Virus record (IMG/VR): IMGVR_UViG_3300035660_000049
Coordinates: 1-33,841 of that record
Source of the DNA: a virus
DNA: 33,841 nt
Direction: 5' to 3' (one strand)
Of this stretch, positions 10,047-23,556 are shown piece by piece. The translations under genes and the position numbers were made by a program. A model generated the notes under the pieces. It was not told the DNA's origin and made no database searches. It saw only the letters and a program-made list of their open reading frames with translations. Within the stretch, counting starts at the first letter, position 1. The number at the start of each line of letters is the position of its first letter.

Positions 10047-11450
10047 TCAGACCAATCCTTGCATGACACCTTGCGCAACTCCAGCGGCTGCGCTATGCCC
10101 CATAGCCCTGCCCTTACCGTGTATGGAGATCGTTAGCATCCCAACGAGCTCTTCACTGACAATCGCGCCCACACCAAACAATTGAGCTACTAAACTCGGC
10201 GGTCCGAGTGCTTCTGCACTGGCAATCTCGCCAAGACCGGAGATTGTGACATTTATTGCGGTCTGACCCATCGCTTCCGCGCTGGCTATTCCACCAATGC
10301 CGGATAGATCACCTACGATCGTAGATTGCCCAATGGCCTCCTGGCTTGCGATGCCGCCAACACCAGCGATACTCAGGATTTCCGTGATGGTGGGTTGTCC
10401 AAATGCCTCCCCGCCGGCGATCGAACCAACTCCAGTAATGTTCTCTGAAATCGCCGGAGAACCAAAAGCTTCTCCGGTTGGGATGCCGGCAAGACTGACC
10501 CGGAATGCTATCGCCGGATTGCCAAAAGCCTCTGCACCGGGGATACCTGACATAGAGACTGCAATTCTAATAGCAGGTTGCCCCATAGCCTCTTCACCGG
10601 CAATCCCACCCACCCCAATCGAATTTGCCTTGATTGCAGGCTGCCCCATAGCCTCTTCACCGGCAATCCCACCCACGCCGGTGATACTCACTGCTTGAGA
10701 AACGGTAAGCGCACCAATGGCCTCCGAGCTGGCTATCCCTCCTACCCCGCTTATGGCAAGGATGATCGCCGGAGAACCTAAAGCCTCGCCAGTAGCGATG
10801 CCTCCCGCCCCGGAGACATTGCCCACATGTATTTCAATAGCCAGGATACCGTAAGCCCCTGATGCACTAGTAAATATAATGGTCGTTCCGGTTTCACCAT
10901 TGACACGATATGCGCTCGCAGCGCCAGCCACGGGGACAGTATGGCCTATATCAGCGGTCTCTACCCAGTCCGCGGGTGGTGTGGAAACGGGAGGATTGAG
11001 TGGTTTCCCGAACCCGGCGATGTAGCCATTGTTGGTATCCATCGCATTCCATGTATCCGTGGGGTTGGCGGCAGTCCGGGCCTCGCTATCCGACTGAACG
11101 ATGGGGGTGACCTGATCGTAGCCAATGACCTGGAAGGCCATCATCACAACGCCAGTAGCATTATCCCCGGTGCAGTCAAAGGTCGGATTCGTGCTGACAG
11201 GACTTGCGCCGACCGGAGCGGTGAAGATGCAAGCCATATCCGTGGTGTTGTAAACAATGCGTTGCTGGCGCGTCCAGGTCAGATTGCCACCGGTCATGGT
11301 TGGAGCAGCCGCCACAGTGCCATCCGCAAAAACCAATACCACCAGGAACGAATAGGCAGCAGGGGTAAAAGCTCCTATCGCATAGGAGGAGGTATTGGTC
11401 GAGGATGCCAACTCCGCAACTGGCTCGGATATTCCGATCACACTGGCCAT
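10047..11450 (-). CDS. Minor structural protein with 11 GIxSxEAxGxPxI repeats (467 aa)
   Basis: Residues 1-205 form a globular domain (YSFLVVLVFADGTVAAAPTM, then VVMMAFQVIGYDQVTPIVQS) like those of phage minor head/tail proteins. Residues 215-445 are eleven units of about 20 residues with consensus GVGGIASxEAxGxPxI (e.g. GVGGIAGEEAMGQPAI twice). The regular Gly and hydrophobic spacing suggests a beta-helix or fibrous stalk. Such GI-EAFG repeats are known from minor structural proteins of tailed phages. The final 20 residues (GKGRAMGHSAAAGVAQG) are Gly/Ala-rich. Role inferred: adhesive or decorative fibre. Confidence 0.65.
   Translation of the reverse strand: MASVIGISEPVAELASSTNTSSYAIGAFTPAAYSFLVVLVFADGTVAAAPTMTGGNLTWTRQQRIVYNTTDMACIFTAPVGASPVSTNPTFDCTGDNATGVVMMAFQVIGYDQVTPIVQSDSEARTAANPTDTWNAMDTNNGYIAGFGKPLNPPVSTPPADWVETADIGHTVPVAGAASAYRVNGETGTTIIFTSASGAYGILAIEIHVGNVSGAGGIATGEALGSPAIILAISGVGGIASSEAIGALTVSQAVSITGVGGIAGEEAMGQPAIKANSIGVGGIAGEEAMGQPAIRIAVSMSGIPGAEAFGNPAIAFRVSLAGIPTGEAFGSPAISENITGVGSIAGGEAFGQPTITEILSIAGVGGIASQEAIGQSTIVGDLSGIGGIASAEAMGQTAINVTISGLGEIASAEALGPPSLVAQLFGVGAIVSEELVGMLTISIHGKGRAMGHSAAAGVAQGVMQGLV
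10107..10815 (-). repeat. Coding repeats of the GIASxEAxGxPxI protein
   Basis: About eleven units of 54-66 bp lie in tandem. Units 3 and 4 are nearly identical at nucleotide level (the segment CCCCATAGCCTCTTCACCGG occurs at about 10583 and 10646), while others have diverged. This pattern fits recent local duplication on an older array. Confidence 0.75.
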
Positions 11451-12322: not shown

Positions 12323-12380
12323 TAGCCGAGCAAGGTGGCGATGTGCTCGGATTAGCCGAGCAGGGTGGCGATGTGCTCGG
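12323..12380. repeat. Tandem duplication of the coat-gene 3' end
   Basis: About 27 bases with the core GGTGGCGATGTGCTCGG occur twice, at about 12323-12349 and 12353-12379, with one mismatch. On the minus strand the first copy encodes the coat C-terminus EHIATLLG and stop. The second repeats the same coding and stop (TAA) just after it, untranslated. Confidence 0.85.
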
Positions 12381-13503
12381 GCTTGATCACCTTGACGCCC
12401 CACGCAATAGACACGTGGTAGACGATCATGCGATAGCCCGGGTAGGCGGCGAAGTCGAAGACCAGGCCGCTGACGGGATCCTCGACCACCATGTGATCGA
12501 TCGCCAGGTCGCCTTCCTTCGGGACGGCGGGCAGGCGGGTAGCCAGCAGGATGGCATTGCGGGAGAAACCGACATTGCAGGCATGGGTGGCGATAAAAGT
12601 GATGGCCACATCGTTCGCCAGGGTTTTCCTCAGCCCGGGCTGGGCCAGCACGATGTCGCCATCGCCATCCCCGGCAAAGCCGGTGGCGACCACGTACTGG
12701 TTCGTATCACCTGCAAAGGTGATCACGTCGCCGGCCAGGAATGACCCTGTGCCAACTTCCACGTGGATGGTCGTGTCGCCGATGTTGTATCCCGCGATAA
12801 GGTCCACGTTATAGGTGGCGCCGGTGCCTTTGGTGAAGGTCTTTACTTGGGCGGACTCCCGGATGGCAAAGCCGTGCAGGTCGAGTATGGTGCCGCGCCG
12901 CAGCAGCGACGTGTCGCCAGCCTCGTTGGCTTTGGTCAACTGCGCCAGGGTGCGCAATTTCGCCCCGGCCGTGGTATTGATGACCAAATGCCGGTCCGAA
13001 GCGGGCGCGCCGTTATCGTCCAGGATCTTCTTGATGTTGGCAGGATCTGACAGGTCGGTCGCGAACGGGGCCGTGGCAGCCGCACCATAGGCGCGCGATG
13101 CGCCTTTGTGAGATGCATCGGCCAGATCGCCCTCGATCTCATTGACGGCTGCGCGGATCGCCTGTGCAATCTGGTCCTGTTGGATCGTCAGGAATCCGGG
13201 ACCGTAATCCATCGCCTTCTGCTCTTCCCCGCTCCAGGAGAACGGGAAATAGCGTGACTTGCTGATGGTGACGTCCTTATTCGTGATCGTTTGATCCGCG
13301 GCGGACGGCAGCGCCATTGCAGGCGTGACGTTACCTCCCGCAGCATTCGCGGGGGTTGCTGGGCCGCGCAGGGTTTGACCCATTGCCACCTGGTCGGCTC
13401 TTGAATCACGCGCTACTGCGGGGATGAACCCGACCAGCTCGCGCGAGACCACGTCCAGCGCGGCGTAGATGTCGGGAATTAGATTGGTAAGTGAGTTAGA
13501 CAT
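12352..13503 (-). CDS. P22 coat protein-like major capsid protein (383 aa)
   Basis: This is the main shell subunit with the HK97 fold, P22 coat subtype. The start MSNSLTNLIPDIYAALDVVS and following RELVGFIPAVARDS are hallmarks of the P22-like family. The central insertion (YNIGDTTIHVEVGTGSFLAG, then DVITFAGDTNQYVVATGFAG) corresponds to the P22 telokin-like I-domain. The last residues YHVSIAWGVKVIKPEHIATL match the family end. Length is somewhat below P22 coat. Its neighbours, a ClpP-type protease and an HK97-type portal, are not those of P22, so the head module is mosaic. Confidence 0.9.
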   Translation of the reverse strand: MSNSLTNLIPDIYAALDVVSRELVGFIPAVARDSRADQVAMGQTLRGPATPANAAGGNVTPAMALPSAADQTITNKDVTISKSRYFPFSWSGEEQKAMDYGPGFLTIQQDQIAQAIRAAVNEIEGDLADASHKGASRAYGAAATAPFATDLSDPANIKKILDDNGAPASDRHLVINTTAGAKLRTLAQLTKANEAGDTSLLRRGTILDLHGFAIRESAQVKTFTKGTGATYNVDLIAGYNIGDTTIHVEVGTGSFLAGDVITFAGDTNQYVVATGFAGDGDGDIVLAQPGLRKTLANDVAITFIATHACNVGFSRNAILLATRLPAVPKEGDLAIDHMVVEDPVSGLVFDFAAYPGYRMIVYHVSIAWGVKVIKPEHIATLLG

Positions 13504-13539
13504 TGGAATTTACCTCGTTTCATCAGGATATCGTCGTCG

Positions 13540-13908
13540 TTATTGATCAACGACTTTGCCGCCAGAAAGCACGAATTTTCGCTTTTCGACGGCATTGAGC
13601 ACCTCGAAGTCGGGGCGCTTCATCGTCCCCGGCGTTTCAGACGCTTCGGGGTCGGGTTGAGTGGTGGAAACGGGGACGAAGTTCTTCGCCACGTCGCTGG
13701 GCCGGGCCGCTTTTTTCAGCGACTCGTACAGTTTCAGGGCTTCATCGGCCTTGTTCTGAGCCTCGTCCAGCGCGGGGCGCAGAGCAAGCGCCTTCTCTTT
13801 TGCTTCGTCCGTTCCCTCTTGGAAGTGCGCATCGATGTCGTTCGCGATATGTTTCACTTCCGCATCCGTCTCGATGACGGCGTCGTGATAGGGTTTCAGG
13901 TCAAGCAT
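13540..13908 (-). CDS. Coiled-coil protein before the coat gene, scaffold candidate (122 aa)
   Basis: The gene lies between the protease and the coat gene, where scaffold or delta-domain genes are found. Residues 1-70 are charged and strongly helical (VIETDAEVKHIANDIDAHFQ, then EAQNKADEALKLYESLKKAA), like scaffolding proteins. Residues 80-122 are loosely structured with a basic end (NAVEKRKFVLSGGKVVDQ). Scaffold function is inferred from position. The start at 13908 follows AGGAGATCCCCC and overlaps the protease stop by eight bases; the longer open frame upstream is a protease shadow. Confidence 0.6.
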   Translation of the reverse strand: MLDLKPYHDAVIETDAEVKHIANDIDAHFQEGTDEAKEKALALRPALDEAQNKADEALKLYESLKKAARPSDVAKNFVPVSTTQPDPEASETPGTMKRPDFEVLNAVEKRKFVLSGGKVVDQ

Positions 13909-15049
13909 GGGGGATCTCCTTTTCAAGAATTTGTCGAACTCGATTACGGAGGGTCTGCGCCTCGCGTTCGTTGTCCGCTGCGGCAGGATCGCTGCGAAGT
14001 GCTGGAACTTGCGCAGCAGAGTCCGCCGCGGGCGGGACATTATTGATGGTAACTGATTGCGCTACCATGACTGGGGATATCGCCTGCATCAGCTCAGGCG
14101 GGACATGATCATAATTGCGCAGGCAGTTGACGAATGCCATATTGCTTACGCTAGCCTTCTGCCCGCCCGGCAGGATCTCGTCTGCAAAACCATACTCCAC
14201 GGCCTGGCGCGCGCTCATCCAGATCTCATCGGACATCATCAGAGAAATTTCTTCCTCGTTCAATCCGGTTTTGGCGGCGTACGCCGGAACGATGCCGTCC
14301 TTGATGTCCTGCAGTTGGTCGCGGATTTCGCCGAGCGTTTCGATATCCAACATGGCCATAAATACCACCACCGCGGGATCGTGGATCATCATGTAAGCTG
14401 TGTCCATCATCTGCAAGGTCTTGCCCGAGATCGCCACGATCACCGCCGCGCTGGCTGCCACGCCGTCCACCCGTACCGTGATCTCGCCGGGATAGTCGGT
14501 CATGATGGCCCGCATCGCCGAGGCGGCGAACACGTCCCCGCCGGGCGAATTGATTTTGAGCAGGATCGGCCCGCCCCCGCCGAACATATACAGGTCGTCT
14601 TTGAACTTCTTGGGGGTGATCTCATCGCCTAGCCAGGAATACTCCGAGATCGGGCCGTAGAGCTCCAGTTCGGCCTGGCCGCTCTCGCTTTCGGCGGCAT
14701 TCACGAAACGCCAGAACGGCTCATAGGGCTGGGCGTTTCCATCGAAACAGCGGAAGGGCATTTTTTGCATGGCTTTATTCTCTGCTTTCTCTTTGGCCGG
14801 CTCGAAAGATTTGCCGTCATGAGCTTTGCAATGCTTGCGAGCCTGGGCCTCGGTCCAGATTGTTTTTTTGTATCGATGAGCCTGTGTATCCGAAGAATCA
14901 TCCTTGCGGTAGCCGATGATCAGATCGTACGGTTTGCCAGTGGCTTTGTAGCCATCCTTGTCATTGTTGTCTTTTACGTGTTTGCGGATGAAGCGAACAA
15001 ATTGGTCCGGGTCCAATAAACGGCAACTGTGCTCGTTGGGAAATGGCAC
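13901..15049 (-). CDS. ClpP-like head maturation protease with N-terminal domain (382 aa)
   Basis: Residues 125-310 form a ClpP-type serine protease. The signature LLKINSPGGDVFAASAM precedes the nucleophile motif GVAASAAVIVAISG (Ser after GVAA), and the His is in YMMIHDPAVV. It cleaves internal scaffold parts during head maturation (family knowledge). Residues 1-90 are an extra domain (CRLLDPDQFVRFIRKHVKDN, then WTEAQARKHCKAHDGKSFEP) that often precedes phage proteases and may bind the capsid or DNA. A GGTAGC-type hairpin repeat lies in frame near the C-terminus (codons for MVAQSVT). Confidence 0.85.
   Translation of the reverse strand: MPFPNEHSCRLLDPDQFVRFIRKHVKDNNDKDGYKATGKPYDLIIGYRKDDSSDTQAHRYKKTIWTEAQARKHCKAHDGKSFEPAKEKAENKAMQKMPFRCFDGNAQPYEPFWRFVNAAESESGQAELELYGPISEYSWLGDEITPKKFKDDLYMFGGGGPILLKINSPGGDVFAASAMRAIMTDYPGEITVRVDGVAASAAVIVAISGKTLQMMDTAYMMIHDPAVVVFMAMLDIETLGEIRDQLQDIKDGIVPAYAAKTGLNEEEISLMMSDEIWMSARQAVEYGFADEILPGGQKASVSNMAFVNCLRNYDHVPPELMQAISPVMVAQSVTINNVPPAADSAAQVPALRSDPAAADNEREAQTLRNRVRQILEKEIPHA
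14048..14066. repeat. GGTAGC-type hairpin repeat copy inside the protease gene
   Basis: GGTAACTGATTGCGCTACC differs by one base from the reverse complement of 6777-6795. It lies in frame and encodes part of MVAQSVT in the protease C-terminal region. This ties the intergenic hairpin family to coding sequence. Confidence 0.65.
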
Positions 15050-15061
15050 ATTACACCTTCC

Positions 15062-16303
15062 TTATTTGCCTTCTGCCTGCCCGCCTGGCTGGGCAGGCGC
15101 AGGCAGGCCAATCGGTTGAATGTTGCTGGCCATGTAATAACGGTCGCCATCGGCATAGGCGCCCACGTCGTCCTTCTCGCGCGCCTCGTTGGGCGTCATG
15201 ATCCCGTTCTGGATCCTCTTCGCCATCGCCTCGGCCCGTGACCGGCTGTCCATGCGCAGGAGCGATTCCCGGATGAATTTGAAGTAGGTATCGCCTTGCT
15301 CAGCCTGGCTCAGCCATTTGATCCGCGCCGCTTCCTCCCACGGCACCAAGTACGCGTCCAGGGTGCCCTGCAGGTATTCGATGTACTTCTGTTCGTTGCT
15401 GTTGTAGGATTGTTTTCCTCTGTTGAGCATGTGCTCGGGCAGGCCGAAGAAGTTGCAAACGTCCTGGTCGGTGGCGTCGATGCTTTCTAGGAACTGTGCA
15501 TCCCTGAGTTGTATGTCGATCGCCTCGAATTTCGTGATCTTGCTGTCGAACACCGCGAGGCGGTAGGCATTTTCGGTCCCGCTCATGGCCTCCTCGTAAG
15601 CCTTGCGCACGATCTGGCGTTTCTCTTTGTCGAGCTCGCCAGACATTTGTATATAAGCGGCGGGCATGAACCCTTGCGAGTACAACATGCTCTGCGTCTT
15701 GCGCGCTGCCAGCTGCCGCCCGAACGTCTCGCGCGCAAAGGTGATCACTCCGCGTCCCATGCAGCCCGTCGCATCCGGGTTGATCAACAAGTGCAGGATC
15801 TCCACCGATGGGATGTACTCGGTCTTGCCGCTCGTGAATGTGTGCCGGTACCATAAATTGCCTTCCACGTCGAAGACCGGCGTCGTGCGGTCGGCAGGCA
15901 GGATCAGCAGCTGCCTGGGCCCGACCATTGGCTGCCAGATGTAGGCATTGCCGTAGAATAATTGCCATTCGATGACGGCTTTCTTGAATTGGAACGGAGT
16001 CCAACCCCACAGGTTCGGCGAGACCTGCAGCAGGTAGGCCATGTTTCGTGTCACCGCGTCGGGCTGGACCTGCTGGATGTTCCGCCCCTCGCGCCTGATC
16101 ATTTGGAAGGGGATCTTCGCGACGTCGTCGCTAATGATGTTCTTGGCGCGGTAGGCCGTGGCGATCGCCAGCGATCCGTTGACCGTGACCTTCTCCCCTG
16201 AACGGGTTTCGTAGCCACGCCGCGTCTCGTAGTCCGGCCGCGGCGTCGCATTCGGATCTTCCTTGATTTTCTGTGTATTACTTAGCAGGTTGCTCAGTAA
16301 CAT
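15062..16303 (-). CDS. HK97-family portal protein (413 aa)
   Basis: The portal is the dodecameric ring at one capsid vertex through which DNA enters and leaves. The sequence matches the phage_portal (HK97) family: IATAYRAKNIISDDVAKIPF, the LLQVSPNLWGWTPFQFKKAV region, then NAYIWQPMVGPRQLLILPAD and the C-terminal FGLPEHMLNRGKQSYNSNEQ. It lies after the terminase block and before the protease, as in HK97-like heads. The C-terminal LPAPAQPGGQAEGK is low-complexity, encoded by a GCCTGCC-type palindrome (about 15066-15108). Its start overlaps the upstream small gene. Confidence 0.9.
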   Translation of the reverse strand: MLLSNLLSNTQKIKEDPNATPRPDYETRRGYETRSGEKVTVNGSLAIATAYRAKNIISDDVAKIPFQMIRREGRNIQQVQPDAVTRNMAYLLQVSPNLWGWTPFQFKKAVIEWQLFYGNAYIWQPMVGPRQLLILPADRTTPVFDVEGNLWYRHTFTSGKTEYIPSVEILHLLINPDATGCMGRGVITFARETFGRQLAARKTQSMLYSQGFMPAAYIQMSGELDKEKRQIVRKAYEEAMSGTENAYRLAVFDSKITKFEAIDIQLRDAQFLESIDATDQDVCNFFGLPEHMLNRGKQSYNSNEQKYIEYLQGTLDAYLVPWEEAARIKWLSQAEQGDTYFKFIRESLLRMDSRSRAEAMAKRIQNGIMTPNEAREKDDVGAYADGDRYYMASNIQPIGLPAPAQPGGQAEGK

Positions 16304-16463
16304 GCTTTGCCTTGGCCTTTGCGATCAGCACGCCGAAAACGATCAGCATGATTCCCGCCGCGATCCACGTGGCGATGGCGCTCAACAGGGACAACCCATA
16401 CAGGATGCAGGCGCACCCCGCTGCGAGCAGAAGGTCATCCAGAAAACGAAGCAATAATTTCAC
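16278..16463 (-). CDS. Small membrane protein, two TM helices (61 aa)
   Basis: Two hydrophobic segments (LLLAAGCACILYGLSLL and TWIAAGIMLIVFGVLIA) with a short polar N-terminus and a Lys-rich C-terminus (KAKAKHVTEQPAK) suggest an inner-membrane hairpin. It overlaps the start of the portal gene by 26 bases and follows another small membrane gene by a four-base overlap. Holin or accessory roles are possible, but no family is recognised. Confidence 0.65.
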   Translation of the reverse strand: MKLLLRFLDDLLLAAGCACILYGLSLLSAIATWIAAGIMLIVFGVLIAKAKAKHVTEQPAK

Positions 16464-16714
16464 TTGAAAACCAACTGCACTTTGCCTGTCAGGAGGGCGC
16501 CAATAAAACCTAAAATGCCCAATCCAATAGCGCTTACGAAAAACATGCTGATTTTGTAGAAAGTCAGGACTGGCTGGAGCTTCTCTAGCTTTTCATAGAT
16601 GTCAACGATCGCAGAAAAAAGCAGGACGTCGCGCGTATTATCGTTGTCTATATTTCCACCCCTCTCGATCACATCCCTAATTTTCTTGATGACCTCGCTG
16701 CTGCCGTTTGCCAT
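16460..16714 (-). CDS. Small membrane protein with N-terminal helix and one C-terminal TM (84 aa)
   Basis: The N-terminal half (ANGSSEVIKKIRDVIERGGN) is a charged helix. The C-terminal half has a hydrophobic stretch (ISMFFVSAIGLGILGFIGAL) followed by KVQLVFK, giving one membrane span. The start at 16714 has AGGAG nine bases upstream; the longer open frame would begin inside the terminator hairpin and is rejected. This is the first gene downstream of RNA element copy 1. Its relation to the second membrane gene (22659-23126) is positional, not sequence-based. Confidence 0.65.
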   Translation of the reverse strand: MANGSSEVIKKIRDVIERGGNIDNDNTRDVLLFSAIVDIYEKLEKLQPVLTFYKISMFFVSAIGLGILGFIGALLTGKVQLVFK

Positions 16715-16735
16715 GCCATTCATCTCCTGGACAAA

Positions 16736-16766
16736 CAAAAAACCCGACGCCTCTATGGCGTCGGGT
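16736..16766 (-). terminator. Intrinsic terminator of RNA copy 1
   Basis: A 10-bp GC-rich stem (ACCCGACGCC/GGCGTCGGGT, loop of five) is followed on the minus strand by six T residues and GTTTG. It lies 20-odd bases before the ribosome-binding site of the 84-aa membrane gene, so late genes downstream would be silent unless it is passed. Confidence 0.8.
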
Positions 16767-16826
16767 GCATCACTCTCGACAATTCGTCCCGGTCTTAGCA
16801 CCAGGACTGCAAAAGTTGTTCTTACG
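16736..16826 (-). ncRNA. Short structured RNA with terminator, copy 1
   Basis: A consensus promoter lies just upstream (16833-16860). The minus-strand RNA then contains hairpin 1 (GTCCTGGT / ACCGGGAC, 16786-16807) and a GC-rich stem (ACCCGACGCC / GGCGTCGGGT, 16742-16766) followed by TTTTTT, an intrinsic terminator. The same order recurs at 23155-23231 with the shared segments TTTTGCAGTCCTGGTGCTA and GATGCACCCG. In both copies GGTGC of hairpin 1 could pair with GCACC in the terminator's 5' arm, so the two structures exclude each other. It may be a cis-acting leader (attenuator or antitermination site) or a free small RNA. The function is inferred. Confidence 0.65.
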
Positions 16827-16832
16827 ATCTAA

Positions 16833-16860
16833 AGTATAGCCCCTTTACCAGAATTGTCAA
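16833..16860 (-). promoter_or_regulatory. Strong leftward promoter before RNA copy 1
   Basis: On the minus strand, TTGACA (16855-16860), a 16-base spacer and TATACT (16833-16838) make a near-perfect sigma-70 promoter. It would start transcription near 16826 and read into the structured RNA and the portal-tail genes. It diverges from the Arc-like gene promoter 57 bases away. Confidence 0.85.
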
Positions 16861-16864
16861 GCGC

Positions 16865-16911
16865 GAAAACGGGCAACCTTCGAAAATCGTTGCCGCGGAA
16901 ACGGCGTTTTC
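16865..16911. promoter_or_regulatory. Nested inverted repeat between divergent promoters, operator candidate
   Basis: GAAAACG (16865-16871) with CGTTTTC (16905-16911), and inside it GGCAAC (16872-16877) with GTTGCC (16889-16894), form a nested dyad exactly between the two -35 boxes. It is a natural site for the Arc-like repressor encoded next door; binding is inferred. Confidence 0.5.
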
Positions 16912-16916
16912 AACCC

Positions 16917-16945
16917 TTGACAAGCCTTCACATTGCCGCTATAAT
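16917..16945 (+). promoter_or_regulatory. Consensus promoter of the Arc-like gene
   Basis: TTGACA (16917-16922), a 17-base spacer and TATAAT (16940-16945) are a perfect sigma-70 promoter. The start codon at 16952 is seven bases after the -10 box, where transcription should begin, so the mRNA appears leaderless. Confidence 0.88.
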
Positions 16946-16951
16946 GCCGCT

Positions 16952-17110
16952 ATGAAAAAATTTACACTTAGACTCTTTGATGCCCTCCATGAAGCACTTA
17001 TAAAAAGTGCCGCGAAAAATCACCGGAGTTTAAACAGTGAAATGATCCATGCCTTGTTAGAATATGTGCGAAATCAAGGCTACAAAGTGAGTGAAGAAAA
17101 AGAAATCTGA
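16952..17110 (+). CDS. Arc-like ribbon-helix-helix repressor (52 aa)
   Basis: This short frame starts MKKFTLRLFDALHEALIKSA and continues to KNHRSLNSEMIHALLEYV, a clear Arc/MetJ-type RHH pattern. FTLRLF gives the DNA-contacting beta strand, ALHEALIKSA helix A, and SLNSEMIHALLEYV helix B. RHH proteins bind as dimers to short dyads. The nested inverted repeat just upstream, between divergent promoters, is a likely operator. It could auto-regulate and repress the leftward late promoter, as Arc does at P22 ant. It could instead be an antitoxin, but no toxin gene is adjacent in the same transcript. The mRNA seems leaderless. Confidence 0.85.
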   Translation: MKKFTLRLFDALHEALIKSAAKNHRSLNSEMIHALLEYVRNQGYKVSEEKEI

Positions 17111-17124
17111 TTCCCTTTACAAAC

Positions 17125-17158
17125 GAGCCTAAAGAGCGCAGGAACGCTCGATAGGCTC
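17125..17158. repeat. Two-tier hairpin after the Arc-like gene
   Basis: GAGCCT (17125-17130) pairs with AGGCTC (17153-17158), enclosing GAGCG (17134-17138) / CGCTC (17145-17149) with a CAGGAA loop. There is no T-run. It could act as an mRNA end-stabiliser or as part of the structured leader that follows. Confidence 0.55.
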
Positions 17159-17164
17159 TGACCA

Positions 17165-17219
17165 CCGCCGTGCACAGGCCACGACGTAGGCTGATGGCAA
17201 TTGTACCATCACACGGCGG
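17165..17219 (+). ncRNA. Structured leader before the 118-aa gene, three-way-junction-like
   Basis: Stem P1 CCGCCGTG (17165-17172) pairs with CACGGCGG (17212-17219). Inside are a short GCC/GGC hairpin (17178-17191) and stem TGATGG / CCATCA (17192-17211), with a CAATTGTA loop abutting P1. The ribosome-binding site GAGGAGG (17231-17237) starts 12 bases after the structure. No known riboswitch was recognised. A structured 5' leader is inferred. Confidence 0.45.
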
Positions 17220-17243
17220 ACCATTCCAAAGAGGAGGCTCGCC

Positions 17244-17600
17244 GTGTTTGATTTGAATGCCCTGTTCGATCTCAATTCCCTGCCGGTCGCGCCGGAGTTC
17301 ATCGAAGTGCTGGCCGAGAATGCCACCGAGACCGCCGCGGCTGCTCTCGAAGCCCTCCACGCTCCCGAACATCTCGTCCTGCTGGTCAGGAACATCCACG
17401 AGCTGGGTTATTATCTAGAGCAGTGTTACCGCTCCCCGAATCCCTTGCTGCGCGAGCGCAGCAGCCGCTTCGACATCGAAGCGGTTGTCATCGAAAGCCT
17501 CAATGCCATCGCCCAGTCCGGCGGTATTTTCCGTGGGCCCACCGGCGACACTTTCCCACGCGAAGCGCCCACGCCTGTGCAGTTCGAGAAGGGATCATGA
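17244..17600 (+). CDS. Unrecognised helical protein (118 aa), GTG start
   Basis: GTG at 17244 follows GAGGAGG by six bases, which decides the start. The protein begins VFDLNALFDLNSLPVAPEFI (start residue Met in vivo) and is mostly helical and Ala/Glu-rich (EVLAENATETAAAALEALHA). A Leu-rich segment (LVLLVRNIHELGYYLEQC) lies in the middle, and a Pro-rich end (REAPTPVQFEKGS) follows. No family is recognised. Its stop overlaps the start of the endonuclease VII-like gene (ATGA), so the two are coupled. It lies in the rightward island after the Arc-like gene. A regulatory or anti-repressor role is possible but only inferred. Confidence 0.7.
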   Translation: MFDLNALFDLNSLPVAPEFIEVLAENATETAAAALEALHAPEHLVLLVRNIHELGYYLEQCYRSPNPLLRERSSRFDIEAVVIESLNAIAQSGGIFRGPTGDTFPREAPTPVQFEKGS

Positions 17601-18229
17601 GAGAGATCCCGCTCACCCAGAGGAAGATATGTAATCACTGTGGGGAAGATAAAAAAACTGATGAGTTTTGTAAGTGCTCTCAGTCTCTTGATGGATTACA
17701 ACCAAGATGCCGCGATTGCAATAGACTTTATTCTAAAGCTACGAAAGAACAACGCAAGGAATACAACCGATTATATCGTTTGCGCCATCCAGAAGTAGGA
17801 CGCAAAGCCCAAGCTAAATACAGAAAGGCCCATCGAGAGGAAGTCCTGAAAAGAAACCGGGAATATATGCGTCAAATCCGCAAAGAATGCCCCGACAAAT
17901 TTCACAAAAGAGATCGAAAATTCTTCCTAGCCAAAAGAGGTCTAACCGAAGATGAATACAATCGCCTATTTGAACAACAAGGTGGCGTGTGTGCGATTTG
18001 CGGGCATACCGGAACGGGGAAGCATGGTTATCTCTGCGTAGACCACGACCACAAAACAGGTAAAGTTCGTGGTTTACTTTGCAACAGTTGTAATATGGGA
18101 TTGGGTCATTTTGGCGATAACGCATCTATCTTGAAAAAGATGATCGATTATCTCGCTTTTGCCGAAGCCGTTGCCGCTCGTGATGAGGCAGCCAAAAAAT
18201 ATCACGGTGAATTCGCCAATCTCAAATAG
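17597..18229 (+). CDS. Endonuclease VII-like HNH nuclease with AP2-type C-terminal end (210 aa)
   Basis: Residues 10-45 hold a Cys-rich zinc ribbon (CNHCGEDKKTDEFCKC, then RCRDCN). A basic helical linker follows (KEYNRLYRLRHPEVGRKAQA). Residues 120-185 form an endonuclease VII/HNH-type core: VCAICGHTGTGKHGYLCVDH, DHKTGKVRGLLCNSCNMGLG and FGDNASILKKMIDYL. The last residues, ARDEAAKKYHGEFANLK, match the C-terminal end of AP2-type HNH homing endonucleases (compare [18 protein letters not shown] in the 160-aa gene at 27410). It is probably a free-standing mobile nuclease. The start at 17597 is in the ATGA overlap. Codon use is more A/T-rich than the neighbours. Confidence 0.82.
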   Translation: MREIPLTQRKICNHCGEDKKTDEFCKCSQSLDGLQPRCRDCNRLYSKATKEQRKEYNRLYRLRHPEVGRKAQAKYRKAHREEVLKRNREYMRQIRKECPDKFHKRDRKFFLAKRGLTEDEYNRLFEQQGGVCAICGHTGTGKHGYLCVDHDHKTGKVRGLLCNSCNMGLGHFGDNASILKKMIDYLAFAEAVAARDEAAKKYHGEFANLK

Positions 18230-18248
18230 GCTTGGCTTAAAGCACACC

Positions 18249-18264
18249 GTCCCCTCACGGGGAC
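18249..18264. repeat. GTCCCC/GGGGAC hairpin
   Basis: GTCCCC TCAC GGGGAC forms a perfect 6-bp stem 20 bases past the HNH stop. There is no T-run on the + strand, so it is at best a weak terminator for the rightward genes. Confidence 0.45.
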
Positions 18265-18307
18265 GGGGCGGCGGGCGCAGGAGCGCTAATCGCACTTTTG
18301 CTTCAGG

Positions 18308-18354
18308 TTTAGCTCAAGAAGAGCTGCCTGCTAAAAATATTATAGCACAATTTG
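18308..18354 (+). repeat. tRNA-like fragment repeat, copy A
   Basis: TTTAGCTCAAG..AGAGCT, then GCCTGCT..ATATTATAGCAC, resembles a tRNA D arm followed by a 5' anticodon strand. It matches copy B at 18425-18474 over most of its length. No T arm or acceptor stem follows. It is judged a relic or repeat, not a functional tRNA. Confidence 0.5.
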
Positions 18355-18381
18355 GCAAATATTCAATCTTATAAAACGGGA

Positions 18382-18409
18382 ACGCCGCCCTGCTTTCACA
18401 GAGCGGCGT
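18382..18409 (-). terminator. Hairpin between tRNA-like repeats, weak leftward terminator
   Basis: ACGCCGC (18382-18388) and GCGGCGT (18403-18409) form a perfect 7-bp stem, with inner CTG/CAG pairs. On the minus strand the T-run TTTTAT comes about five bases after the stem, so termination of leftward terminase/tRNA transcripts here is plausible but not optimal. Confidence 0.5.
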
Positions 18410-18416
18410 GTCCGTC

Positions 18417-18474
18417 AAGCCATAGATTAGCTCAATGGATAGAGCTAGCCCGCTGGATATAATATAGCACTTTT
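18417..18474 (+). repeat. tRNA-like fragment repeat, copy B, with tRNA segments in permuted order
   Basis: AAGCCATAGAT (18417-18427), then the D-arm-like TAGCTCAATGGATAGAGC, then TAGCCCGCT (18446-18454). In the minus-strand tRNA nearby, TAGCCCGCT and AAGCCATAGAT are contiguous in the opposite order. The copy ends with ATATAATATAGCAC, like copy A. Confidence 0.55.
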
Positions 18475-18513
18475 CTCCTGAAATTTCAAGAGGCAAATAA
18501 ATCATGGCAAGTG

Positions 18514-18585
18514 CGCCCCGGGCGAGATTCGAACTCACATCTATGGCTTAGCGGGCTATTATTCTATCCGTTGAACTACCGGGGC
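18514..18585 (-). tRNA. Degenerate tRNA, anticodon position GCT (identity uncertain)
   Basis: Acceptor GCCCCGG pairs perfectly with CCGGGGC. D arm GTTC..GAAT, T stem GTGAG/CTCGC and loop TTCGAAT are sound. The anticodon loop reads CCGCTAA, so anticodon GCT (Ser) but with C at position 33 instead of the near-universal T. The anticodon stem has one A-C mismatch, and the four-base variable loop lacks the long arm expected of tRNA-Ser. Discriminator is G; CCA is not encoded. It could be a phage tRNA under decay, a tRNA mimic, or a decoy. It lies downstream of the terminase gene on the same strand. Confidence 0.7.
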
Positions 18586-18768
18586 ACCCCCTCGATTGTA
18601 CCGCGGAACGTCTGACCCCGTAGTTGGGTGCGTTATTTTTGCAATATGTCTACGCAGGTCAGATCGCGACTGCTCAAGTAAGGCAAGCTGTTTACGTTGC
18701 CGCTCACATTTCTTGAGCAATTCCGAATAGCGAACCTTCAAAAGTTGAAATTCAATCCACTTTTTCAT
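18559..18768 (-). CDS. Small coiled-coil protein running into the tRNA (69 aa)
   Basis: GAGG precedes the ATG by about six bases, and the gene begins 84 bases after the large terminase stop. The first 45 residues (LLKVRYSELLKKCERQRKQL, then ALLEQSRSDLRRHIAKI) are a basic heptad-like helix. The last residues (GGAPVVQRIE) and the stop codon are read from the 5' part of the degenerate tRNA, so the two overlap by 27 bases. No family is recognised. Confidence 0.55.
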   Translation of the reverse strand: MKKWIEFQLLKVRYSELLKKCERQRKQLALLEQSRSDLRRHIAKITHPTTGSDVPRYNRGGAPVVQRIE

Positions 18769-18852
18769 AGTTTCCTCTAAAATCCAAACCTGATATTGTT
18801 CCCATCAACCGGGCCCACGCTTGGATTGTACCGTATTACAGTGACAAAATAG

Positions 18853-21768
18853 CTACATCCCCCAGTCCTGGTCTAAGATACCGCTCATATCGCTTTCCTT
18901 CAGCGATTGCATTCGCACCATCGCCGTAATGATTGCGGCGATCGGATCGATGCGCCGCGTGTCGCCCGCCTTCTTCTTCGAAAGCATGATATTCTCTTTT
19001 GTATCCACGATCTCCCTGGCATTGCCTACTGCCCAGCGTAAGAGCGGCGAATTGTCGTGCACCAGTTTGCCGCTGGCCACCAGCTCGCGGAACGTCTTGG
19101 TCGGCTCGCTCAAGATCTTCATCCATTGAGCGATCTCGACCGTGATGTAGCCCAGCTCACTCAGCTCGATGGCGAAATGTGTGGCGGCGTATGGGTCATA
19201 AGCAATTTCGTGGGTTTTCCATAAATATTCCTTCTCGCAGCGCTGGATGTATTCCTGCACCCTCCTATAGTCGGTAACGTCACCCTCGGTGATGGTTAGC
19301 CAGCCATCCCGCGCCCAGTCCCGGTAGGGAATTTTATCCAGCTTCTCATGACGGTCCACTCCCCCCTCGGGGATGAACCCATGCGCGCAGACCGCCACCC
19401 GCTCGTCCTCCAGCAGGAAAACGCTCCCTGCCGCGGTCAGATCGATCTTCTTCGACAGGTCCAGGCCGACCAGTGTCAACCGGCCGCTGGTCAGTTCCAG
19501 GAATTCCTCGCGCGGGACCCCGCACTGGTCCCATTTCGACAGGCTCTCACCCAGGGCAGGCGTCAGGTACTCGCCCATGTACGTGCTCTCGTTCCCGTGC
19601 ACCCAGATGTTCAGGTTCTTGACCCGGAACGTGCGGATCTTGGCCGAGTCTTTCGAATTGAATGCTTCGTCGTGCATGTCACGCAATTCCTTTCTCATAA
19701 CCCGGTTGCTCATCATCAGTGGATTGGCCTTCGTCCAATTTTTCGGGTCATGCTCATCGTCGCCCTCGTCCAGCTCGCGGATCATCACGAAATAGCGCTC
19801 GTTCTTCACCTGGCCCTTCAAGATCATTTTTGCATATTCGTATTCGTGATGGCAGGGGCTTTCCACGTCCATGCCCGCGGTGGTGATGATCAGCATCAGC
19901 GGCTGGGCGCGCTGGCCCTTGGCCGAGGAGATCTGGTCGTATATTTCCGACGTGGGGTGGGCGTGGTATTCGTCCACAAATGCGCAGGATGGGGAAAACG
20001 CGTCCTTGTTCTTTACCTCCCCGCTGAACGCCACCATCTCGCCGCCGCGCGACTTGTGGTTGATCTCGAATTTCCCGATCTTGAGCCGGGCGCGGATATC
20101 CCGGCTCTGCTCCGCCATTTCCTTCGACGAGTTGAACAGCACCCGCGCCTGCCTCTTGTCCACGGCCGTGCAGTAAACCTCCGGGCTGGCCTCCATGTCG
20201 CCGACCATCATGTACAGACCGATCCCCGCCCCGCGCGTGGTATTGTGCGTAGGTATCATGGTTTCGCCTGCTAGATACAGTTTCGATTGGGAATCAACCT
20301 GGATACAACGAACAGGCTCGCTCGGTATGGGGTTCACGGCCACGATCTGCCTCATACTTGCTCTTGTACTTGTTGCCGGAGCATTCTTTTGCCGATTCCG
20401 TTTCCTTTCAAGGCGGAAAACCTCCTGTCCTTGATATGCCCAAAATTGGATTTTGAAGCATGTGCCACAGTCCTTTCCATACAAAAGCGCACGACCCACT
20501 GATTGGGTTGGCTTATATCCCAGCGAACAAAGCAATTCGATGACACCTTCCGCTAGCAGCGCATTGGACGTCGAGAAACTGCATTGTCCCGCCGGACTAA
20601 TCGTCCCATCTGTATCATTGAGACCCTGCAGCAATGTCTGTCTCTGTTCAATGGATGCTCGCAAATAGGGCATCGGAATATGTTTGTTGTTGCGCAGATT
20701 TAATGCGCTTAGCTTATGACCAAATGAATTCGTCGGGTCATTCCTGGCACCTTCTTGCGTACTTAAAGAGAACAACCCACAGTTGCCGGAACGCGATTTA
20801 GTCTCATGAATAGGTACACCAGTCTTGGCAATTTCATCCACAATTTGTATATCACTATAGCCAATAGTAATGCGCGCTCCATTCGAATGCCCATCCCCAA
20901 GCCAACACCCCAGGACATACGGGTTTATTGGAAGATCCTTAGCAGGTAGTGTCAAAGGCTCGGCCACCCGGATCCGGTGATTCCATTCAACACGGCCATG
21001 CGTTTTGTTGAATGGAGTATCAACACTCAGCGTTCGTGCAATCTCTTCGGTTGTGTGTATAAAATCAGTCGAAGTGAATCTTTTGCTGTGTGGACGATGT
21101 GTCTTTTTCATGTCGGTGTGCCATAGATGTCCTGCATCAGCCACAATCTTGGCGCCATCGGAGAACGTCAGCTCGTAGCAGGTATGGCCGACCATTACAT
21201 CCGACGTGTAAATTACCCTGGTTATCTGCCCTCTCTCGTCAAATAGTTTATCTCCCACTTTGACGTCAGCCATACGTACCCAACCATCAGGCGTTGGTAA
21301 TGGAGTAGAAAGGGCCAAGGCCTTGGCGTTCTTCCTACCTTCAGTAATGAACGCCTTGCGGAACCGCCGCACGCCCACCGAGCGGCCGTCGGCGCGCTCG
21401 ATCTTTTCCCTCCGCGAGACCCATCCGAAGATACACGACACCTCGAAACGATGCGAGTTGATCAGTCTGATGGGTTTCCCCGCCAGGCGGCCCTTGACGT
21501 GGACCAGGCTGGCAAACCATTCCACCGCGACCAGATCCGCCTGCGCGCCATCAAACACCCATTCGAACCGGGGATCCTTCTTCGGGACGGGCTGCCCGGT
21601 CGCCTTTTTGACGCGCGTCGCCAGGTCCTTCGGGAGCTGCCCCGCCCGCGCCAGGTCCCGCAGATGGCGCAGGCAGGCCAGGCGCTCCATGCTGCCCACA
21701 TTGCGCTTGCGCTCCACGGCCTCGATGGCATAGTTGGTCGCCGGATGGATCTTGATCGGGGTGGACAT
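18853..21768 (-). CDS. terL: Terminase large subunit interrupted by an intein (971 aa precursor; 611 aa after splicing)
   Basis: The ATPase-nuclease motor packages DNA through the portal. The N-terminal extein (1-149) ends in the Walker A motif GRKNAK, which continues as TTRGAG at residue 510, so the intein splits the P-loop. Walker B is in AFVDEYHAHPTSEIYDQI, and nuclease acidic residues are in LVGLDLSKKIDLTAAG and IAYDPYAATHF. The rejoined 611 aa is a normal TerL length. It follows the small terminase gene with a one-base overlap. Splicing must restore the P-loop for activity, which may couple packaging to splicing; that regulation is inferred. Confidence 0.93.
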   Translation of the reverse strand: MSTPIKIHPATNYAIEAVERKRNVGSMERLACLRHLRDLARAGQLPKDLATRVKKATGQPVPKKDPRFEWVFDGAQADLVAVEWFASLVHVKGRLAGKPIRLINSHRFEVSCIFGWVSRREKIERADGRSVGVRRFRKAFITEGRKNAKALALSTPLPTPDGWVRMADVKVGDKLFDERGQITRVIYTSDVMVGHTCYELTFSDGAKIVADAGHLWHTDMKKTHRPHSKRFTSTDFIHTTEEIARTLSVDTPFNKTHGRVEWNHRIRVAEPLTLPAKDLPINPYVLGCWLGDGHSNGARITIGYSDIQIVDEIAKTGVPIHETKSRSGNCGLFSLSTQEGARNDPTNSFGHKLSALNLRNNKHIPMPYLRASIEQRQTLLQGLNDTDGTISPAGQCSFSTSNALLAEGVIELLCSLGYKPTQSVGRALLYGKDCGTCFKIQFWAYQGQEVFRLERKRNRQKNAPATSTRASMRQIVAVNPIPSEPVRCIQVDSQSKLYLAGETMIPTHNTTRGAGIGLYMMVGDMEASPEVYCTAVDKRQARVLFNSSKEMAEQSRDIRARLKIGKFEINHKSRGGEMVAFSGEVKNKDAFSPSCAFVDEYHAHPTSEIYDQISSAKGQRAQPLMLIITTAGMDVESPCHHEYEYAKMILKGQVKNERYFVMIRELDEGDDEHDPKNWTKANPLMMSNRVMRKELRDMHDEAFNSKDSAKIRTFRVKNLNIWVHGNESTYMGEYLTPALGESLSKWDQCGVPREEFLELTSGRLTLVGLDLSKKIDLTAAGSVFLLEDERVAVCAHGFIPEGGVDRHEKLDKIPYRDWARDGWLTITEGDVTDYRRVQEYIQRCEKEYLWKTHEIAYDPYAATHFAIELSELGYITVEIAQWMKILSEPTKTFRELVASGKLVHDNSPLLRWAVGNAREIVDTKENIMLSKKKAGDTRRIDPIAAIITAMVRMQSLKESDMSGILDQDWGM
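20242..21321 (-). mobile_element. Class 3 intein with LAGLIDADG endonuclease (360 aa) inside terL
   Basis: The insert runs from Ala150 (ALALSTPLPTPDGW, block A with Ala instead of Cys) to Asn509 (MIPTHN), followed by +1 Thr. Block B has HLW (His214, Trp216), block F has VRCIQV (Cys488) and block G has Thr507-His508-Asn509. That is the Trp-Cys-Thr triad of class 3 inteins, which splice through the block-F Cys and not residue 1. LAGLIDADG-type motifs LGCWLGDG and LLQGLNDTDG mark a homing endonuclease. The DNA is visibly A/T-richer than the flanking terminase, which fits recent transfer. Confidence 0.9.
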
Positions 21769-22238
21769 CAGTCGAACTTCTTCGCGAACTTGTCGTGGAT
21801 CTCGTCTGCACGCTTCTTCACCAGCCGCGCCCGCGCCGAGGGATTGAATCCCAGCTTCTCGGCATACGAGGCGATGATCCGTGCCCAGGTTTGCAATTCC
21901 TTGATATCATCCGCGCTTTTGGGGCTGCGTCCGGCCGCCAGGCGATATTGCACGTACGCGTCGCAGTAGACGGCCAGCATCTCGGTGTCCAGCACGTCCA
22001 GTAGCTCAGCAGTCGCATTCAGCCCCGCGACCTCCTTCAATTTCCGCAGCCAAACCCTGCGCGCCTCGGCGCTCAACCAATCAGGCGGCGCCAGCTTAAT
22101 AGGTTTCTGCCGTTTCAGCTTTTCCGCGGCCTTCTGGCGCGCGGCCACCTCGGCCGCGGTCCAATGCTTGCCCCCGCCCTTTTGGCCGATCTCCATCGTC
22201 TCAGCAGAAACCACAGCGGAGCTATATTTCTTTGGCAT
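21768..22238 (-). CDS. terS: P27-family terminase small subunit (156 aa)
   Basis: It recognises the packaging site and stimulates the large subunit. It matches the P27 small terminase type: a basic N-terminus (MPKKYSSAV, then EKLKRQKPIKLAPPDWLSAE), the WLSAEARRVWLRKLKEVAG segment, and LLDVLDTEMLAVYCDAYVQY, typical of this family. Its place directly before the large terminase gene, with ATG and TGA overlapping, is standard. An HNH nuclease gene precedes it, as in many cos-type phages. Confidence 0.88.
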   Translation of the reverse strand: MPKKYSSAVVSAETMEIGQKGGGKHWTAAEVAARQKAAEKLKRQKPIKLAPPDWLSAEARRVWLRKLKEVAGLNATAELLDVLDTEMLAVYCDAYVQYRLAAGRSPKSADDIKELQTWARIIASYAEKLGFNPSARARLVKKRADEIHDKFAKKFD

Positions 22239-22297
22239 CTCAAAGCCTCAAGCAGGGATATTTTCTCGCGTTTGTTGACCTCGCCGGTTTGGAACTC

Positions 22298-22666
22298 CTA
22301 TTCTAAACTTTTTGATGGCCTATCCTTCGAGCCGTCGAGATAATGTTTTTTGTTATCGCAGCGCCGACACAATCCCTCGAGGTTGCTCCAGCCATCTGTG
22401 CCGCCCTGGCTGCGTGGGTGGATATGATCCACCACGACGGCCGGGACACGAGGACCATGCAGCCCGAATGGATTGACACACCACGGATGCGCCTTGAGAA
22501 ATGGATCGCGGACTCTTGTCTTCCAATCCCAACCATAGCCACGAGCAGACGCGGAAGGACGATCGTCCACTGCCCGCGGACGTGGATGCCGTGGGCAGTC
22601 TTGACCAGGTTGCACCAGGATGGTGCAACCTGGCACACGGCACGGATGCGGCGAGCGTTTAGGCAT
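22298..22666 (-). CDS. HNH endonuclease next to terminase genes (122 aa)
   Basis: The HNH core VVDHIHPRSQGGTDGWSNLE followed by GLCRRCDNKK has the first His-Asp/His and the Asn-His-like metal residues, with Cys pairs (CRVPGC, LCRRC) for zinc. In cos-type phages such as HK97 (gp74), an HNH protein works with the terminase in cutting packaging sites; that role is suggested here by position just before the small terminase. The start at 22666 overlaps the holin-like gene stop, while the longer open frame upstream is a shadow. Classification as packaging nuclease and not mobile HNH is likely but not certain. Confidence 0.78.
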   Translation of the reverse strand: MPKRSPHPCRVPGCTILVQPGQDCPRHPRPRAVDDRPSASARGYGWDWKTRVRDPFLKAHPWCVNPFGLHGPRVPAVVVDHIHPRSQGGTDGWSNLEGLCRRCDNKKHYLDGSKDRPSKSLE

Positions 22667-23126
22667 CTTTGCCGCTGAACGATGCACCAAGCAGCGGCAC
22701 CCTGGCGGCTTTGAGAGCATCATGCGTGGATTGAGATCCGGTAATTTGCACGATGAACCCAAGCACGAACAGGATGACCATCGCAATCTGCCCGGCAAAT
22801 CCATCCAGGATACTCATCGTCAGGTCAGGGCGGAAGACGCCGAGAAGAACCAGGGTAATAAACGCAACCAGGTTCATTCCGGCTGCCCATTTGTTGGCAG
22901 TGCCATCTTTCACCAGGCCAGTCAGCTTGAGCAAATTTACCAGCGCGGCGACCAGCTTCGAGACACCGACCAGCGATGCAAAGCCGAGCATGATGACGAC
23001 CACCACGTTCAGCACGTCAGGTGGGAGCGGCGCAGATGCGGGCGAAACCGCATGGACTGCCGCCGGCAGGAATGCCGCCAGGGCAACTACCAGCAAAACG
23101 GTCACGATCAAAGTAATGCGTTTCAT
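22659..23126 (-). CDS. Membrane protein, 3-4 TM helices, holin-like (155 aa)
   Basis: It starts with a signal/anchor segment (MKRITLIVTVLLVVALAAFL). Further hydrophobic stretches follow (LNVVVVIMLGFASLVGVSKL, WAAGMNLVAFITLVLLGV, GQIAMVILFVLGFIVQI). The topology of several short helices with small polar ends fits a holin or phage accessory membrane protein. No clear family name can be given. AAAAGGAGATCGAAC precedes the ATG. It is the first gene after RNA element copy 2. No endolysin is next to it; the endolysin gene lies about 3.4 kb away in the early region. Confidence 0.65.
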   Translation of the reverse strand: MKRITLIVTVLLVVALAAFLPAAVHAVSPASAPLPPDVLNVVVVIMLGFASLVGVSKLVAALVNLLKLTGLVKDGTANKWAAGMNLVAFITLVLLGVFRPDLTMSILDGFAGQIAMVILFVLGFIVQITGSQSTHDALKAARVPLLGASFSGKDA

Positions 23127-23149
23127 GTTCGATCTCCTTTTGAATTGTT

Positions 23150-23231
23150 TGAAACAAAAGCACCCGGCGCCGCAGCGGCGCCGGGTGCATCATTTCCGAC
23201 AGACGTCCCGGTCTAGCACCAGGACTGCAAA
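23150..23231 (-). ncRNA. Short structured RNA with terminator, copy 2
   Basis: Hairpin 1 is GTCCTGGT / ACCGGGAC (23205-23225), and the terminator is a 12-13-bp GC-rich stem (GCACCCGGCGCC.., 23160-23188) followed on the minus strand by TTTTGTTT. The sequence and order match copy 1 (16736-16826). It sits between the last early gene (stop at 23260) and the first late gene. No strong promoter is seen directly upstream (only a weak TTGATC..GAATAT pair), so it may receive transcripts reading through from the early operon. Confidence 0.62.
23155..23188 (-). terminator. Intrinsic terminator of RNA copy 2
   Basis: A 12-bp or longer GC stem (GCACCCGGCGCC/GGCGCCGGGTGC) is followed by TTTTGTTT on the minus strand. 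It lies about 30 bases before the membrane gene start, so it would stop early transcripts before the terminase block. Confidence 0.82.
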
Positions 23232-23259: not shown

Positions 23260-23556
23260 TCAAGACCTCCTTTCGGTTTTATTATATATCAGCTCGATCA
23301 GTCTGACCATTGCATCCTCGCCGATGATCCAATCATGCACCTTCCCACAGGCCGTGCATCGGATGGCATCCATGCTGCCGATCACCCGCCCACGCAGTAC
23401 CGGCAGTTCGGCCGGCTCATCGCCACATGCGACCGAGGTCTCATAAAGCATCAAGGCTAATACCTTATGTTCTCCAACTTTGATTCTCTTGACCTCGCCC
23501 AGACGGTGAACATCTTCCTGTGGCTGCGGCCAGAACCTGCGCTCACTCGCCGGCAT
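23260..23556 (-). CDS. Unrecognised small protein with Cys pair (98 aa)
   Basis: It is the last gene of the early block. The C-terminal half has IRCTACGKVHDWIIGEDAMV, one half of a possible zinc-binding site (CTAC) with a His close by. The N-terminal half is charged and beta-like (RIKVGEHKVLALMLYETSVA). No family is recognised. The start lies in a 14-base overlap with the upstream loader-like gene, so translation should be coupled. RNA element copy 2 follows its stop by about 30 bases. Confidence 0.65.
   Translation of the reverse strand: MPASERRFWPQPQEDVHRLGEVKRIKVGEHKVLALMLYETSVACGDEPAELPVLRGRVIGSMDAIRCTACGKVHDWIIGEDAMVRLIELIYNKTERRS

Follow-up and report, generated by a model that had tools for sequence, protein, structure and literature searches.

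A phage leader RNA family with a linked, coevolving CxxC protein as the most likely basis of a late-gene antitermination switch

The window, meaning here the whole stretch of DNA analysed, is the 33,841-base IMG/VR phage record IMGVR_UViG_3300035660_000049. The virus is of the siphophage type; its minus strand encodes portal, head protease, major capsid and tail proteins as well as terminase. The typical order on this strand runs from the early genes to the gene of a CxxC protein (the ‘ZN protein’), element A, a small membrane protein, HNH, TerS, TerL, element B, portal, protease, capsid and tail. The arrangement of early genes, CxxC gene, A, terminase, B and portal-tail genes is common to about 15 to 20 phages. 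The ZN protein (23260..23556) is 98 aa long, carries a CxxC motif and is the proposed trans-acting antitermination factor. Its gene is the last of the early operon and lies 20 nt upstream of element A. The ZN gene, the two late operons and both elements with their promoter sequences are all encoded on the minus strand.

Operon A begins with the small membrane protein, which has a signal- or TM-like N terminus (22659..23126), followed by HNH, TerS and TerL. The terminase large subunit (18853..21768) is 971 aa long, with an intein-like insertion of a LAGLIDADG-like domain between the terminase parts. The TerL of phage G001 is of similar length (975 aa) and that of most relatives is about 570 aa. 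The phages L243-L276 encode one or two tandem ORFs of about 400-450 aa, all from a single family (cluster 12), which in many relatives are located between TerS-like ORFs and TerL. A tRNA-Ser(gct) is found on the minus strand downstream of TerL (18513-18585), and a tRNA-Glu(ctc) on the plus strand at the contig end (151-225). The start of operon B (12352..16723) comprises a small ORF and then the portal (15062-16303), head protease (13901-15049) and major capsid protein (MCP; 12352-13503), with the tail genes after the MCP. A putative minor tail protein gene contains ten repeat copies at a spacing of about 63 bp (10129-10811). Palindrome-like GGCCGAAGGTGCCGGCACCT repeats are dispersed over both strands of the window (292, 6815, 12135, 26068, 29487 and 31246), and the set includes a 69-nt inverted pair at 29480-29548/31226-31294.

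Each late operon is preceded by an element in which GCA is followed by a hairpin, H1, and by a 5-bp hairpin, H2, the 3′ strand of which is the 5′ arm of an intrinsic terminator. A preliminary description of this DNA had placed two near-identical minus-strand elements here. Both were confirmed, each with GCA, the GTCCTGGT/ACCGGGAC stem and a strong intrinsic terminator, after which come a ribosome-binding site and a small ORF. They have a 26-nt block in common with 92% identity (repeat family D11). Their covariance-model (CM) E-values of about 1e-16 to 1e-21, along with the homologous copies described below, place them far beyond chance. Element A (23152..23228; CM 77-78 bits) consists of GCA, H1, H2/terminator and a U-tract. 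Its H1 (23205..23225) pairs GTCCTGGT (23225-23218) with ACCGGGAC (23212-23205) around a GCTAG loop. The antiterminator hairpin H2 (23180..23200) pairs GTCGG (23200-23196) with CCGGC (23184-23180) around the loop AAATGATGCAC, and the terminator (23152..23188; dG -30.7) is formed by GCACCCGGCGCCG / CGGCGCCGGGTGC and TTTTGTTT. Element B (16733..16810; CM 62-70 bits) has the same H1 strands (16786..16807; 16807-16800 and 16793-16786) with a GCTAAG loop. Its H2 (16760..16780) joins GTCGA (16780-16776) to CCGAC (16764-16760) through four of five pairs, and its terminator (16733..16766; dG -20.8) is formed by ACCCGACGCC / GGCGTCGGGT and TTTTTGTTT.

Element A is located between the early genes and the terminase operon, in agreement with the position first given for the copy at 23.2k. 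The promoter claimed for the copy at 16.8k was also recovered, as a sigma-70-type promoter (16833..16860) with TTGACA at 16860-16855, a 16-nt spacer and TATACT at 16838-16833. The majority of B copies directly follow TTGACA-(15-19)-TATAAT-like promoters. Before element A, within the 3′ end of the ZN gene, there is a -10-like TATAAT (23281..23286) without a -35, followed by GAAAGGAGG, and in most A copies a TGTATAAT box, likewise lacking a -35, stands 27-44 nt upstream. A TGTATAAT-like box with GAAAGGAGG about 8 nt further on was seen at 23286-23265 of the window and in most element-A leaders, with no start codon at a fixed place. A second recurrent hairpin is present upstream of many B copies, with a (C/T)CCCCCT loop and varying stems (CTTG/CAAG, CCTG/CAGG, GGGTG/CACCC). 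It was seen at L086, L095, L096, L100, L102, L008, L203, L208, L161 and L167, and also upstream of element B in G007, G011 and G016.

The elements belong to an RNA family of IMG/VR phages with at least 84 distinct copies, homologous to one another and covarying in their stems. The H1 pattern occurs in 31 stretches of viral contigs, about 27 of which are plainly the same element with its terminator. A covariance model, R1, was built from 22 copies and, with two H2 patterns, gave more divergent copies. A second model, R2, together with protein-led loci, gave 92 matches, and 84 distinct copies were used in the strand analysis. The fixed GTCGG/CCGAC sequence partly reflects the H2 search patterns used. 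The class-B phages G018, G020 and G024 have one clear copy only. In 257 Gb of bacterial genomes the core pattern matched 24 times; chromosomal copies were rejected, as 23 of these matches were without the rest of the element, and the single real match is on an 11-kb MAG contig that also bears the CxxC protein. The sequence has no match in Rfam: the Rfam 15 scan of the window returned only the two tRNAs at or above the gathering threshold, and that of 13 divergent loci matched no family. SmY, caiA, PyrR and other Rfam families appearing at a relaxed threshold were rejected as chance matches. A suggested link to Chloroflexota was not found in 400 genomes of that phylum, where a search run without a positive control gave seven weak, chance-like RNA matches and no protein match.

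H1 covaries at all eight pairs and H2 at four of five, counted as double changes over 87 distinct rows. In these rows, 146 double-change cells were observed in H1 and H2 against 26 in shuffles, and 95.8% of cells are paired against at most 58% with the strands slid. The consensus of H2 is GUCGG-A(A/G)nnGAUGCRC-CCGAC or GUCGG-AGAUGAGCGC-CCGGC. As the 3′ strand of H2 lies within the terminator 5′ arm, a stretch of the terminator 3′ arm is repeated in the 5′ strand of H2. This strand, being close to a copy of that arm, makes H2 and the terminator mutually exclusive. This conserved alternative pairing, of the linker GTCGG/GTCGA with the terminator 5′ arm CCGGC/CCGAC, is present in 400 of 420 cells (permutation maximum 370). 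The three strands change jointly in the variants GAUGG/CCAUC/GAUGG, UUCGG/CCGAA/UUCGG, GUUGG/CCAAC/GUUGG, GGAAG/CUUCC/GGAAG and GCCAG/CUGGC/GCCAG. The same joint change is seen in copies L283, L292, L295-L297, L299, L301, L302, L304, L307 and L310, and since these were found via the protein and not the RNA pattern, the exclusivity is not an effect of the search pattern. In a blind scan of 21 phage records, a competing strand was present at 24 of 31 element terminators versus 5 of 67 other terminator-like sites (p=4e-12). By computed folding, the minimum free energy (MFE) structure contains H2 in 72 of the 84 nascent prefixes; among the complete leaders it contains the terminator in all 84.

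The view that a structured RNA with a terminator guards each of the two late-gene blocks is supported by these results. The switch originally proposed for it, a pairing of GGTGC in H1 with GCACC in the terminator arm, did not hold: it can form in both window copies but does not covary across the family. It pairs in 76% of cells, a value attained by 126 of 2000 permutations, and so is not conserved. The preliminary description contains neither the covarying antiterminator H2 nor the partner protein gene that directly precedes copy A. A leader peptide starting from an AUG in the H2 loop was rejected, at least ten copies having no AUG there.

ORF clustering placed the ZN family in 19 of 21 records, ahead of terminase, portal and every structural gene. 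The CxxC motif, W76 and L35 are its invariant positions. Zinc binding by the protein would be a guess from the CxxC motif. It speaks against the proposed antitermination role that just two cysteines are invariant and that an RNA-binding fold could not be recognised. No convincing family was found in Pfam, PHROGs, NCBIfam or PDB, and weak profile matches to the BIR domain (E 0.02) were not taken as homology. The AF2 model (pLDDT 86) predicts beta strands and one C-terminal helix. It has no Foldseek match in the PDB with E<1, an absence that is not proof, and the best VIA-align match is to PC4-like chains (Z 2.8), with no clear fold match. A viral structure library gave one uncharacterised match, A0A1P8DJL1, at 30% identity. 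Among annotated phages there is one remote relative, in Virus Rctr41k (DAMO/AAA enrichment), which is without an R2 match.

The distribution of the protein follows that of the RNA. The ZN profile matches 30 of 49 records, being present in 30 of 36 with the element and absent in all 13 capsid/portal relatives without it (Fisher p=1e-7 with G040 counted as element-bearing, p=1e-6 if it is counted without). In G040, an element A is read after the protein gene and another before the portal. The element-bearing records without a detectable ZN protein are G017, G022, G023, G026, G029 and G048, several of which are fragments. A protein-led search gave 33 loci, 28 of them with an element downstream on the same strand (E<0.01). 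The RNA is present in 17 of the 19 contigs that were new by this search, in G051 only in the whole-record search. The L294 element scored 17.3 bits in the locus search and was below threshold in the whole-record search, and G060 and G061 are protein-bearing contigs without a detectable element.

The RNA and the protein also coevolve, and do so in trans. ZN protein distance correlates with element-A H1 distance (r=0.71, p=0.0005, with G006 entered through its B element), which is not explained by TerL, portal, TerS or ParB. Element B is the better test of coevolution because A adjoins the protein gene; B is situated beside the portal, kilobases from the ZN gene. The correlation of protein distance with element-B H1 is r=0.78 (p=0.0002; partial given portal 0.78), and r=0.60 (p=0.0014) without the outliers G002 and G005. 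By comparison, element-B H1 gives r=-0.09 against the adjacent portal and r=0.28 (p=0.06) against TerL. Phage G002 reads from its sequence as a natural swap of protein plus H1. Its MCP is 92% identical to that of the window, its ZN protein is very divergent, at about 18-19% identity, and a different H1, GACCGC...GCGGUC, is found in both its A and B elements.

The best explanation, given a probability of roughly three in four, is an antitermination switch in which the ZN protein recognises H1-H2, prevents the terminator from folding and opens both late operons. The element would be a transcription attenuator that carries its own antiterminator. RNA polymerase, arriving from the early operon (A) or from the element's own promoter (B), would transcribe GCA-H1, then H2, then the terminator. 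By default, the terminator 3′ arm would displace the near-identical 5′ strand of H2, the terminator would fold and the late operon would remain off. The ZN protein, as the product of the last early gene, would recognise H1 and probably the conserved H2 loop. Direct binding would stabilise H2 and not the terminator, which would then be blocked. As the protein accumulates, both late operons (packaging; portal/capsid/tail) would be switched on together. A tentative and doubtful extension is an undescribed module of a dedicated RNA family and an orphan CxxC family: the protein would be loaded onto the polymerase at H1-H2 and remain bound to it, so that antitermination is processive over the entire late operon. 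The RNA switch controlling the first terminator would also license this loading, and new protein/RNA specificities would arise by joint replacement, as in G002.

The antitermination switch can be compared to several known systems. In ANTAR regulation (EutV, NasR, AmiR), the protein stabilises the antiterminator of a two-hairpin leader, P1-P2, with several leaders per regulon (PMC3369936, PMC8934654). The phage element likewise has several leaders and two successive hairpins, the second of which overlaps the terminator 5′ arm and excludes the terminator. It differs in its loops, as ANTAR leaders have hexaloops with A1 and G4, whereas among 86 phage copies the H1 loops are mostly 4-5 nt (3-7 nt in most, up to 21) and the H2 loops 10-11 nt. 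It also controls late genes, not catabolism. No ANTAR domain was matched in 19 ZN members searched against Pfam (E 0.1). The phage switch is ANTAR-like in architecture and not an ANTAR member. In the BglG/LicT/SacY-RAT systems, an RNA-binding protein stabilises an antiterminator overlapping the terminator, as is proposed for the phage switch; however, RAT forms a single stem interrupted by two internal loops and requires a CAT domain, for which the same 19 members had no Pfam match. Lambda N/nut combines a boxA-boxB site with an Arg-rich N peptide; its boxB is a pentaloop hairpin, and H1, with 8 bp and its mostly 4-5-nt loops, is unlike it. In lambda Q / pR′-tR′, a leader terminator holds the late operon until an early phage protein opens it (PMC7171158), and a similar opening is proposed here. 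Q loads at a DNA element at a promoter-proximal pause, whereas the specificity element here is RNA. The ZN protein matches no lambda Q family in Pfam, PHROGs or NCBIfam, and its model has no clear PDB match by Foldseek or VIA-align, although a missing match proves nothing. The Xp10 protein P7 is a small phage protein causing antitermination at intrinsic terminators (PMC6624301). It plugs the RNA exit channel; here the specificity is in the leader RNA.

The lambda pR′-tR′ and HK022 put systems had both been named as parallels at the outset, and antitermination logic does fit. An element of the put kind, in which the RNA itself acts on RNA polymerase, no phage protein is needed and the CxxC protein is a neighbour or modulator, is nevertheless improbable. 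Like put, the element found here is a phage cis RNA of two stem-loops and about 60 nt directly after a promoter, in two copies per phage as with putL/putR (PMC9378689). Against this, no put homology was found by covariance model, the best R2 score on HK022 25000-40000 being 6.2 bits (E 0.9, filters off). The put RNA, which antiterminates by itself through the beta′ zinc-binding domain, works without a dedicated protein and contains no terminator. A put acting constitutively would have no use for a terminator by which its second hairpin is destroyed, and H1 varies in step with the protein.

The effect could also be of the opposite sign, with the protein binding H1 to favour the terminator, or repressing the late genes in the lysogen or late in infection. 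The coevolution of protein and H1 is silent on sign, and nascent H2 could be the default antiterminator. This too is unlikely, given that every complete leader folds as a terminator and that an early gene placed before the late operons better suits activation. The strong promoter immediately before most B copies and the strong terminator would also be expected of a short regulatory RNA of about 80-95 nt bound by the protein, with the downstream genes served by leakage. In about 20 phages, however, the late-operon start codons are directly past the element terminator, with little room for another promoter. The next start codon is usually 36-92 nt beyond the covariance-model end, a span which includes the remaining terminator, and the downstream genes therefore depend on readthrough or leakage. 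As such an RNA has no need of a conserved copy of the terminator 3′ arm, this explanation is very improbable. Least probable is a DNA operator for a late-gene regulator, with the hairpin a by-product of dyad symmetry: H1 is an inverted repeat spanning roughly +10 to +35 relative to promoter B, but its 74 G.U cells to one A.C outside the innermost pair indicate RNA rather than a DNA palindrome, its loop varies in length, and the exclusivity of H2 and terminator would go unexplained.

The element represents a real, widespread phage RNA family with a linked, coevolving protein, and most likely acts as a late-gene antitermination switch. It appears to be a new switch that times virus assembly genes, in which an undescribed small protein probably opens the RNA. 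Both partners are candidates for new families, the RNA in Rfam and the CxxC protein in Pfam. Beyond the lambda, T4 and T7 paradigms, little is known of how uncultured phages control their late genes; the present result adds an RNA element whose switch can be tested and a partner protein unannotated in every library used. The coevolution of the pair suggests a set of RNA-protein specificities, which could serve as orthogonal transcription switches. The pair also makes it possible to annotate late operons, and the gene for antitermination, in environmental phages.
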